Under the pieces are notes generated by a model. The model had not been told where the DNA came from. It did no database searches and saw only the letters and a list, made by a program, of their open reading frames with translations. A stretch of DNA of 64,000 bases. Origin: Algimonas porphyrae (GTDB lineage: Bacteria > Pseudomonadota > Alphaproteobacteria > Caulobacterales > Maricaulaceae). The position numbers were made by a program, and so were the translations under genes. The DNA lies in NCBI RefSeq assembly GCF_041429795.1, contig NZ_CP163424.1, forward strand, positions 2,358,001 to 2,422,000. Reading direction: 5' to 3'. Numbering within the stretch: the stretch's first letter is position 1; each line of letters opens with the position of its first letter. Shown piece by piece: positions 54,870 to 58,205 of this stretch.

Positions 54870-55559
54870 ATGAAACCCTATGTTCTGATTGTCGAAGACG
54901 AAGACGCGCTGGCCACGCTGCTGGAATATAATTTCGGCAAGGAAGGCTTCGAGACCTCGCTGGCATCCGACGGTGAGGAAGCACTGCTGCTTGCCTCTGA
55001 GCGCACGCCCGACCTGATCATTCTCGACTGGATGCTGCCGAAACTCTCCGGAGTCGAAGTTTGCCGCCGTCTCCGTCGCCGCAAGGAAACGTCCAAAACG
55101 CCCGTCATCATGCTGACAGCCCGCAGCGACGAAACGGACCGGATCACTGGCCTGGATTTTGGGGCCGACGATTACATGATCAAGCCGTTTTCCATGCCCG
55201 AACTGTTTGCGCGCACGCGCGCCCTGATGCGGCGCGCCAAGCCGAGCCTGCTCGAAGACGTGATCCGGGTCGGCGATATCGAAGTCGACAGTCAGGCCTT
55301 TCGCGTGAAACGCGATGGCGAACTGATCCATCTGGGCCCGACGGAATTCCGCCTGCTCGATCATTTCGCGCGTCACCCCGGCCGGGTCTTTTCACGCGAG
55401 CAATTGCTCGATGCCGTCTGGGGTCGTGACGTCTATGTCGAAGCGCGCACCGTCGATGTTCATATCGGTCGCTTACGCAAGGCTCTCAAAAAATCCGGCA
55501 AGCCCGATCCGATTCGGACGGTCCGCAGCGCCGGTTACGCGTTCGAAGCGATCGAGTAG
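54870..55559 (+). CDS. phoB: Phosphate regulon response regulator
   Basis: A 229-residue OmpR-type regulator. The receiver domain has the acidic pocket EDED at residues 9-12, the phosphorylation site Asp 53 in ILDWMLP, and Lys in MIKPFSMPEL near residue 103. The winged-helix domain contains EFRLLDHFARHPGRVFSREQLLDAVWGRDVYVEARTVDVHIGRLRKAL, matching PhoB. ATG start with AAGGA upstream. It should bind the Pho boxes at 54022-54050 upstream of phoU. Confidence 0.94.
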   Translation: MKPYVLIVEDEDALATLLEYNFGKEGFETSLASDGEEALLLASERTPDLIILDWMLPKLSGVEVCRRLRRRKETSKTPVIMLTARSDETDRITGLDFGADDYMIKPFSMPELFARTRALMRRAKPSLLEDVIRVGDIEVDSQAFRVKRDGELIHLGPTEFRLLDHFARHPGRVFSREQLLDAVWGRDVYVEARTVDVHIGRLRKALKKSGKPDPIRTVRSAGYAFEAIE

Positions 55560-55690
55560 CCCACGCATAAACATAAGCTAACCCAAACGGGTAAATTACG
55601 CTTCGTCCCTAGCGCTCCTCTGCAAACTCCCATACCCCCGGCAGCGCACCCCTGCATCAATCCGTCAGCCGGGGCGCAAGGGATAGGGAT

Positions 55691-56815
55691 ATGGGGATTT
55701 TCGAAGATATCTGGCAGTACATGCCGCACGGTATGTGCTTGCTGTGGAAGCCGTGGCTGGTCCTGCTCTGGGCCGGATCCGACACGCTCATCTTTCTATC
55801 CTATTTCGCGATTCCGCTGGCCTTGCTCCGCGTTTTGCGGGGGCGCAGCGAAGTACCGCATCGGGGTCTCGTACTTCTGTTTGCGTCGTTCATATTACTT
55901 TGCGGCGTGACGCATGTCCTATCTATCGTGACGCTATGGTATCCGATCTATCCGATCGTCGGTTTCGTCAAATTGGCGACGGGGATTGTGTCCATGACTA
56001 CAGCCATCGTCCTGTTCCGTCTCAGCCCGACCCTGATCGCCTTGCCGTCGCTCAATGACTTCAAGACCGCCAATGATCAGCTTCGAGCCGAAGTCACAGC
56101 CCATGAGAACACGCTGGCCTCTCTGCGTGAGGTTAGAGACCAGCTGGAAATCAAGGTCGAGGAACGCACTGCGGAGCTGATGGAGAGCAAGAGCAGAGCC
56201 GAAATTCTCGCCCGCGAGGCGGTTCACAGAAGCAGCAATCTTCTTGCCATCGTGTCGTCCCTGACACAGCAGAGCGCCCGCGGAACGGAGCGAACCGAAG
56301 AGTTCATCGATGTTCTGCTTGGCCGTTTGCAGGCACTGGCGACTGCAAACTCCACAGTGCTCGGGAGCGGCGATCAGACGACGGGAAAACTCGAAGATGT
56401 GATCAGACAGCAATTGGAGCCGGCCCTGCTCGTCTTTGCCGACCGCATCCACATTGAGGGGACCCCGGTCCGGGTCAGTTCGGACGCCGCGCAGCAGATT
56501 AATCTGGCCATCCATGAACTCGCGACCAATGCGCAGAAATATAATCTGCCGAACTCGGACAGCACGCAGGTCAGGATCAACTGGTCAGTGACAGATGAAG
56601 AGGTATTGGAATTTTGCTGGCACGAGGACCTTTCAGGCGAGGCCATCAAGCGTCTGAAAAACAGCACGCGCGAGGGGTTTGGAACGAAGCTACTGACGCG
56701 CCTCGTTCCCGCAACGCTGAAAGGCACGGCCCGGCAGGAGATTACGGCGCAGGGCCTGAGCTATTGTCTGACAATTCCGCTCATGTCGCTTCTGCCTGAA
56801 CAGGCCATGGCGTGA
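55691..56815 (+). CDS. HWE-type histidine kinase with ethylene-receptor-like transmembrane sensor
   Basis: A 374-residue kinase. Residues 20-110 form three membrane helices that match the ethylene-binding domain of plant ETR1: the pattern D31, Y38, I68, C71 and H75 has the same spacing as the residues known in ETR1 (D25, Y32, I62, C65, H69), which bind the copper cofactor and ethylene. A coiled coil (125-170) follows. The HWE/HisKA_2 kinase has the phospho-accepting His 179 (EAVHRSSNLLA) and the N-box LAIHELATNAQKYN at residues 272-285; the W-x-E box is weak (CWHEDLS). No response regulator is adjacent in the same operon. Ligand unproven. Confidence 0.85.
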   Translation: MGIFEDIWQYMPHGMCLLWKPWLVLLWAGSDTLIFLSYFAIPLALLRVLRGRSEVPHRGLVLLFASFILLCGVTHVLSIVTLWYPIYPIVGFVKLATGIVSMTTAIVLFRLSPTLIALPSLNDFKTANDQLRAEVTAHENTLASLREVRDQLEIKVEERTAELMESKSRAEILAREAVHRSSNLLAIVSSLTQQSARGTERTEEFIDVLLGRLQALATANSTVLGSGDQTTGKLEDVIRQQLEPALLVFADRIHIEGTPVRVSSDAAQQINLAIHELATNAQKYNLPNSDSTQVRINWSVTDEEVLEFCWHEDLSGEAIKRLKNSTREGFGTKLLTRLVPATLKGTARQEITAQGLSYCLTIPLMSLLPEQAMA

Positions 56816-56834: not shown

Positions 56835-57206
56835 CTAGCTGGCGCGGCGCTGCTCCCGTTCGGCCTGTTGCGCCATACGGCGCGCACGGACGCGTTCGAA
56901 GCTATCCAGCGCATCCAGTTCCTGGCGAAGATCGCCCGAGAGATTGGACGTCTGATCGATGATATCGTCAAGCGAGCGCCGCAGATTGCCTTTCCGGGCG
57001 ATGACCGACTGCGCGTAGCTGCCATAGGCGACATAGCCGTCGCGCTGCTCGTTGGCATCGACTTCGTCTTCCGGGACACTGTCCGAGAGTTTGCGCATCT
57101 GACGTTCCAGATCTTCGCGTGTCGCTTCCAGAACGCCGATCCGTTTTTGCAGTTCCGCGATCCGGAACCGCGTTCGTTGAACCTGTTTGTCCGATAGCTG
57201 TGCCAT
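56835..57206 (-). CDS. fliJ: Flagellar export protein
   Basis: A 123-residue protein that is nearly all coiled coil: residues 5-45 (RTRFRIAELQKRIGVLEATREDLERQM), then a link with YGSYAQSVIARKG, and 75-115 as the second strand. This fits FliJ, the chaperone-like stalk of the flagellar type III ATPase FliI. The ATG at 57206 has GGAGAGA upstream. FliI is not in the window. A fliJ gene beside ctrA is also the arrangement in Caulobacter relatives. Confidence 0.75.
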   Translation of the reverse strand: MAQLSDKQVQRTRFRIAELQKRIGVLEATREDLERQMRKLSDSVPEDEVDANEQRDGYVAYGSYAQSVIARKGNLRRSLDDIIDQTSNLSGDLRQELDALDSFERVRARRMAQQAEREQRRAS

Positions 57207-57402
57207 ATTGTCTCTCCAAACACCTGAATTGCCCGTATGTTCGGGCTTGATTGAAAGCTGACATATCAAGGCAGGCTTTCGACCCGGTGAAGAAACGGGG
57301 TTAAGCCATTTCAACCATGATTTTTGCGGGATGCTGGACGATCGAGCGCCTCGCGCAAAAGTCGTAACGCAATCGGGTCAACTTACTGAACATGAAACGG
57401 CG

Positions 57403-57489: not shown

Positions 57490-57509
57490 GCCTTTGGGAG
57501 GGGTTGGAA

Positions 57510-58205
57510 ATGCGAGTTCTTCTTATCGAAGACGATATGGCCACGGCACAGGGTATCGAATTGATGCTCAAGTCCGAAGGCTTCAATGTTTACACAACCG
57601 ATCTCGGCGAAGAGGGGGTCGATCTCGGCAAACTCTACGATTACGACATCATCCTGCTGGACCTGAACCTGCCGGACATGCCGGGCTTCGAAGTGCTCAA
57701 GACGCTGCGCCTGGCAAAGGTCCAGACGCCCATTTTCATTCTCTCCGGCACGAATGATATCGAAACCAAGGTCCGTGGCCTCGGCACTGGTGCCGACGAC
57801 TATATGACGAAGCCGTTCCATAAGGACGAGCTGGTGGCGCGCATCCATGCTGTCGTCCGTCGCTCCAAAGGTCACAGCCAGTCCATCATCACGACCGGCG
57901 ACATCAAGGTGAACCTCGACGCCAAGACCGTCGAAGTCGGCGATCACCGCGTCCACCTGACCGGCAAGGAATACCAGATGCTGGAGCTGCTCTCCCTGCG
58001 TAAAGGCACGACGCTCACCAAGGAAATGTTCCTCAACCATCTCTATGGCGGCATGGACGAGCCGGAACTGAAGATCATCGACGTCTTTATCTGCAAGCTG
58101 CGCAAGAAACTCGCCGCTGCTACGCAAGGCGAACACTATATCGAGACCGTCTGGGGCCGTGGCTATGTGCTGCGAGATCCTGCCAAAGACAAAATGAGCG
58201 CCTAA
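57510..58205 (+). CDS. ctrA: Cell cycle master regulator CtrA
   Basis: A 231-residue response regulator, the same length as Caulobacter CtrA. The receiver domain has the acidic pair at residues 8-9, Asp 51 in [14 protein letters not shown] and Lys in [15 protein letters not shown]. The DNA-binding domain [50 protein letters not shown] is nearly invariant in alphaproteobacteria. The ATG at 57510 is preferred to a TTG two codons earlier; a GGGAGGGG ribosome site precedes it. It controls cell division, DNA replication and flagellar genes. Upstream CtrA and GANTC sites support conserved autoregulation. Confidence 0.97.

Follow-up and report, generated by a model that had tools for sequence, protein, structure and literature searches.

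The gene at positions 55691..56815 of the window, by which we mean the whole 64,000-nucleotide stretch of Algimonas porphyrae DNA that was analysed, encodes a protein in which a genuine ethylene-receptor-like sensor domain is fused to a histidine kinase of the HWE class, as comparison with sequence profiles confirmed. The receptor domain itself is known; what is new is the kinase class, which is undescribed for ethylene receptors in the literature examined. A literature search found no description of a fusion of an ethylene-binding domain (EBD) to an HWE kinase, which is not proof of absence since subscription journals lay mostly outside its coverage, and the word ethylene does not occur in a paper on HWE kinase diversity (PMC10359499).

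Domain architecture and predicted structure

The gene and the features of its product are listed below; the core rows are those of the family alignment described in the next section.

55691..56815, + strand: EBD-HWE sensor kinase gene, an ATG-initiated ORF of 374 aa with ETR1_N and HWE_HK above the Pfam cut-offs
55757..56044, + strand: ETR1_N ethylene-binding domain, residues 23-118 (Pfam E 2.8e-30; AlphaFold2 helices 21-51, 58-81 and 87-117)
55781..55783, + strand: codon of D31, equivalent to ETR1 D25 (D in 82/82 aligned rows)
55802..55804, + strand: codon of Y38, equivalent to ETR1 Y32 (Y in 81/82 aligned rows)
55811..55816, + strand: codons of I41-P42, equivalent to ETR1 I35-P36 (both in 82/82 aligned rows)
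55892..55894, + strand: codon of I68, equivalent to ETR1 I62 (alignment to ETR1)
55901..55903, + strand: codon of C71, equivalent to ETR1 C65, putative copper site (alignment and ETR1 literature)
55913..55915, + strand: codon of H75, equivalent to ETR1 H69, putative copper site (alignment and ETR1 literature)
56051..56215, + strand: helical linker, residues 121-175, the start of the single AlphaFold2 helix 121-198 that enters the kinase
56216..56464, + strand: HWE_HK phosphoacceptor domain, residues 176-258 (Pfam E 1.3e-15)
56225..56227, + strand: H179, predicted phosphoacceptor (H in 38/43 core rows of the aligned column)
56468..56782, + strand: ATPase part, with the N-box HELATNA (275-281) and W310-x-E312 (W-x-E in 42/43 core rows; matches PDB 5epv)

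A preliminary description of the gene had proposed a search with ethylene-binding profiles as a check, and the ETR1_N profile (PF25487) matched at E 2.8e-30 over model positions 2-97 of 97, with 104.9 bits against a cut-off of 27. Its reading of the remainder as an HWE kinase was borne out by the HWE_HK profile (PF07536), which scored 58.3 bits against a cut-off of 22.8, whereas HisKA_2 reached just 16.0 bits on the same protein. All the residues of the class are retained (H179, H275, N280 and W310-x-E312), and phmmer matched the kinase to the PDB chain of the HWE kinase LOV-HK with E 5.7e-20. The Pfam scan found no GAF, PAS or receiver domain in the 374-aa protein. An inverted repeat, CCCCGGC / GCCGGGG, was seen by eye at ~55636-55674, just 5' of the start codon, where terminator and promoter scans were negative.

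The five residues that had been equated with ETR1 positions (D31, Y38, I68, C71 and H75) were all found where they had been placed, and I41 and P42 bring the set to seven of seven, in keeping with its description as complete; because all seven equivalents are present, the constant offset of six between the two proteins is correct. The seven residues of ETR1 we take, partly as an assumption of our own, to be D25, Y32, I35, P36, I62, C65 and H69. Seven residues are described as necessary for ethylene binding by ETR1, none of them enumerated in the portion of the text available (PMC11819568), and its copper site is placed at Asp25, Cys65 and His69 in PMC12643061 and at Cys65 and His69 in another text.

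An AlphaFold2 model built on 39 aligned rows (mean pLDDT 85.1, pTM 0.57) comprises helices 21-51, 58-81 and 87-117, then the single helix 121-198 and the kinase core. Confidence was good over residues 21-120 (block pLDDT 82-90) and weak over the first 20 residues (block means of 54 and 65). Structure prediction for residues 1-115, also suggested at the outset, thus gave three N-terminal helices, whose placement in the membrane is presumed. Among solved chains, 5epv, the kinase domain of LOV-HK, came closest with a Foldseek E of 1.1e-15, followed by 6ph4 and the EL346 kinase domain. The sensor profile had no sequence match among solved chains, so that a short receptor of this kind would be useful for structural work.

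Among characterized proteins, the nearest likeness is to AzoEtr1 of Azospirillum brasilense, a bacterial histidine kinase with a similar sensor domain. A plasmid record of A. brasilense Sp 7 (L214) contains a 525-aa frame starting MFGGVEAF, which we took to be AzoEtr1 because its length and start fit the published length and primer (PMC11819568); the two sensors align gap-free over 120 residues, 47% of which are identical, and the seven positions are unchanged relative to this measured ethylene binder, residues 1-130 of which bind 14C-ethylene (PMC11819568). AzoEtr1 has an EBD-PAS-HisKA architecture of 525 aa and, according to the same text, a co-located response-regulator gene, whereas the window protein has an HWE kinase, no PAS domain and no dedicated regulator beside it. 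With SynEtr1 and plant ETR1 it shares an N-terminal three-helix Cu(I) sensor, putative in the present case; SynEtr1, however, additionally senses light (PMC11819568), and ETR1 is described as carrying GAF, kinase and receiver domains, while here the sensor meets a kinase of another class through a plain helix. The kinase core resembles that of LOV-HK (PDB 5epv and 6ph4), which responds to blue light through a LOV domain rather than through a putative membrane sensor. EBD-HisKA proteins from the window's own bacterial family, L042 and L045 among them, have the same sensor, the seven residues and a similar length, but a HisKA phosphoacceptor in place of HWE.

Distribution and the EBD-HWE family

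In its own genome, the window protein was the sole ETR1_N match of the profile search. The domain was above cut-off in 24 of 137 genomes of the same family and in 28 of 385 drawn from the same class (own genome included in both); it was found neither in 14 control genomes nor in the genus's 17 other genomes, several being incomplete. All seven residues were present in 45 of the 55 aligned proteins extracted from the family and class searches; 47 of the 55 were scanned for kinase domains, 34 matching HisKA and eight HWE_HK. HisKA_2 scored better than HWE_HK in four of these eight (L041, L065, L073 and L079) and HWE_HK better in two, the window protein and L063, the other two having no single scan. 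A true EBD-HWE fusion is therefore rare in these two samples. The genome carrying L063 (G125, same family) holds two ethylene-domain kinases, this one and a HisKA protein recognized by motif (L043). In genus g9, eight loci (L046-L048, L050-L053 and L055) encode stand-alone ethylene-binding domains of 125-131 aa with the seven residues intact; in the three viewed (L046, L048 and L055) the next downstream gene reads as a separate membrane kinase with an SHDLQAPL motif, and the pair is possibly a split receptor.

The fusion in this chromosomal setting had been presented as an unfamiliar arrangement; the fusion itself is not peculiar to this genome and belongs to a wider alphaproteobacterial family. 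A contig scan led by the window-protein alignment yielded 252 confirmed relatives, and the 80 most similar were retained; 41 of these (L094-L134), with identities of 40-57%, can be aligned over most of the protein's length and, with the window protein and L063, make up the 43 core rows. Their hosts are Erythrobacter, Qipengyuania, Blastomonas, other sphingomonads, Rhodobacterales, Afifella and Notoacmeibacter, and the core family is mostly one of Erythrobacteraceae, Blastomonas and Rhodobacterales; one member, L106, is shortened by an in-frame stop. At E 1e-60, with at most four candidates scored per genome, 16 of 397 genomes in the G544 family and 8 of 394 in the G546 family had core members, a patchy distribution in both.

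All but one of the 82 aligned rows retain the seven sensor residues, the exception being L132 with F for Y; these counts lean toward the window protein because its 80 most similar relatives out of 252 supplied the rows, and I, C and H, which sat in one retrieval pattern, were partly favoured, whereas D, Y, I35 and P36 were in none. W-x-E occurs in 56 of the 82, namely 42 of the 43 core rows plus 14 outside the core (Caulobacter, Phenylobacterium, Acetobacteraceae, Hyphomicrobium and unclassified bins), and in four of these 14 that were scanned (L139, L150, L159 and L165) HWE_HK was above its cut-off and above HisKA_2. The N-box His is kept in 34 of the 43 core rows, with Y in three Blastomonas-type members and W or N in six that are kinase-defective. 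The three with Y (L114, L115 and L118) thus have a substitute for a residue that helps to define the HWE class.

In those six core rows kinase-core residues have been lost and the sensor site kept (with F for Y in L132). H179 is lost in five (L125, L127 from Erythrobacter NAP1, L129, L131 and L132) and N280 in four (L125, L127, L129 and L130), requiring on the tree a minimum of three changes for H179 and one for N280; the six form two groups, each with SH-aLRT 100. Sensor and kinase part have mean identities of 83% and 63%, respectively, within the group of four, 65% and 62% within the pair L131-L132, and 71% and 46% among the active rows. From these means, the sensor has been conserved after damage to the kinase core, relative to the kinase no more than in active members; a conservation special to the defective rows was rejected, because active rows show the same tendency and L131-L132 almost none. 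Plant receptors that lack canonical kinase residues are a parallel, and the defective members offer a bacterial test of signalling by an ethylene site without histidine kinase activity.

A link to photosynthesis was considered and was not supported in the one family compared. The reaction-centre family is present in 20 of 40 genomes with core loci (41 in total, that of L107 left out) and absent from the window's own genome; in the 397 genomes of the G544 family, which its loci suggest to be sphingomonads, those above the cut-off numbered 5 of 16 carriers and 71 of 381 non-carriers (Fisher p 0.20, two-sided).

Chromosomal position and origin of the gene

The kinase gene lies among the following neighbours.

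54870..55559, + strand: phoB, upstream neighbour, marking the left boundary of the site at which three congeners have no gene (NCBIfam TIGR02154, 334.4 bits against a cut-off of 296.2)
56835..57314, - strand: fliJ-like gene, downstream neighbour, marking the right boundary of that site (name from the preliminary description; adjoins ctrA in congeners)
57504..58205, + strand: ctrA (NCBIfam NF045991, 423.4 bits, cut-off 350)

The names phoB and ctrA, given beforehand, are upheld by these scores, whereas the fliJ label found no family match in Pfam or NCBIfam. A significance earlier attached to this setting is not supported by comparison with relatives. Three congeners (G006, G007 and G017) keep the order phoU-phoB-fliJ-ctrA with no gene between phoB and fliJ, the aligned ends of which lie 39, 92 and 21 bases apart, respectively. 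Of the other 14 congeners, G012 has no fliJ match; in the remaining 13, fliJ adjoins ctrA and the phoB-fliJ junction cannot be read because phoB is absent from the available flank (up to 1.5 kb). No neighbour family occurred in more than 9 of 42 loci, with ORFs overlapping the gene set aside and several flanks short. Nor was an adjacent response regulator conserved in relatives, the mark of a dedicated partner, found by this comparison, which joins ORFs by BLAST and which short or divergent regulators would escape. The location of the gene is probably incidental.

On the tree, the window protein groups with Erythrobacteraceae and Blastomonadaceae in a branch of 23 rows (SH-aLRT 94, not starred), the inner order of which is not settled. 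A common origin with L063, from the same bacterial family, was rejected, the joint tree having p 0.00025 in a constraint test that used a quick tree and a pair picked after the tree had been viewed; L063 adjoins, and diverges from, genes that read from their translations as cytochrome bc1 subunits. A further EBD-HWE copy, 74% identical in the sensor, adjoins an integrase on pBSY18_2, a mobilizable 152-kb Blastomonas plasmid from an algal phycosphere. Taken together, the congeners without the gene, its placement on the tree and the plasmid copy make transfer into the lineage likely, and the gene was probably gained in this way, loss in the congeners being the alternative. The GC3 of 0.71 is no outlier beside 0.71-0.75 in four neighbours. 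A phage origin was rejected, the sole phage match covering residues 242-365 only at 33%.

On the plasmid (L212:2113-4095) the kinase gene is convergent with two overlapping genes for single-domain response regulators. A tblastn search of the 41 core loci, the window and L200 at E 1e-3 gave no match for one regulator; the other matched in L118, L132 and L120, in none of them adjacent to the kinase.

Proposed function and its alternatives

We favour the view that ethylene, bound through Cu(I), modulates an orphan HWE kinase which in turn acts on the general stress response, a view that as a whole seems probable to us. Its ethylene-sensing part, which rests on the sensor sequence and presupposes copper and ethylene binding, is highly probable; the route downstream through PhyR or MrrA, by analogy with other alphaproteobacteria, is put forward tentatively. 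The protein would be an inner-membrane ethylene sensor, probably a dimer, in whose three predicted transmembrane helices C71 and H75 would coordinate Cu(I), D31 being close to the site. Ethylene would bind the copper, and the resulting change would be relayed by helix 121-198 to the phosphoacceptor helix of the HWE domain and alter autophosphorylation at H179. The phosphate would most likely pass to a common receiver pool, PhyR or a single-domain regulator of the MrrA/SdrG type, and so tune the general stress response, by which attachment and motility would be affected in turn.

The partner in this scheme is a guess, because no response-regulator neighbour is widely common. Several HWE/HisKA2 kinases of Caulobacter are reported to phosphorylate MrrA, a single-domain regulator that provides input to PhyK-PhyR and has effects on attachment and motility; most of those of Sphingomonas melonis are reported to phosphorylate PhyR and SdrG (PMC5964349). 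The genome of the window has, at ~3035.8-3039.3 kb, PhyR (352 bits, cut-off 240), NepR, an ECF sigma factor and a PhyK-like HisKA_2 kinase (280 bits, under the PhyK cut-off of 750). It also contains four further matches to the window protein, mainly to the kinase part. A FATG-type receiver motif occurred once across the window and nine own-genome loci. It lies in one of these loci, L002 (2793131-2796781), which encodes another HWE-type kinase, apparently with a C-terminal receiver that has the FATG motif in frame.

Cu(I) sites are also able to bind other alkenes and CO, and the true ligand might be some other small unsaturated gas or metabolite (propylene, acetylene or CO, for instance), ethylene being bound poorly; the identity of all seven positions to those of AzoEtr1 makes this quite unlikely. 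A sensor in which copper occupancy itself, and not ethylene, sets the kinase is also unlikely, if marginally less so. The residues do form a copper-site pattern, ETR1 in nanodiscs was stiffened by Cu(I) alone (PMC12643061), and the Phenylobacterium protein L139 weakly matches CopD (21.0 bits, under the cut-off of 32.1). However, Y, I, P and I, the members of the ETR1 set that are not ligands, are kept as strictly as the ligands, AzoEtr1 binds ethylene with the same residues (PMC11819568), and there was no copper gene among the neighbours scanned.

PhoB and CtrA are the response regulators nearest to the kinase, but as targets they are highly improbable, because the position is not common to relatives: the place is empty in three congeners that retain phoB and ctrA, and no neighbour is widely shared among related loci. 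Moreover, HWE/HisKA2 kinases are said to signal often to outputs without a DNA-binding domain (PMC10359499). The gene may, finally, have been acquired without a working pathway in its host, a reading consistent with the signal of transfer and with the 17 congeners, several incomplete, in which ETR1_N was not found. It is improbable in view of the intact frame, sensor residues, H179, H275, N280 and W-x-E, and of a GC3 so close to that of the neighbours.

Returning to the ethylene-sensing kinase, we suggest, more speculatively than any part of the scheme above, that compact EBD-HWE receptors, spreading horizontally, plug ethylene into the alphaproteobacterial network of stress response and attachment, and that two lineages have evolved kinase-defective forms with an intact site. 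For bacterial ethylene-domain proteins in general, a wide range of outputs is noted in a review (PMC7700396). Ethylene arises photochemically in natural waters, at levels to which cyanobacteria respond (PMC6682694), and its source here, if it is sensed, would perhaps be algae or sunlit dissolved organic matter. A short receptor free of GAF, PAS and receiver domains is suited to copper-binding and structural work. If the protein acts as we propose, groups of Erythrobacter, Blastomonas, Roseobacter and Maricaulaceae would read ethylene through a kinase class linked to the stress response.
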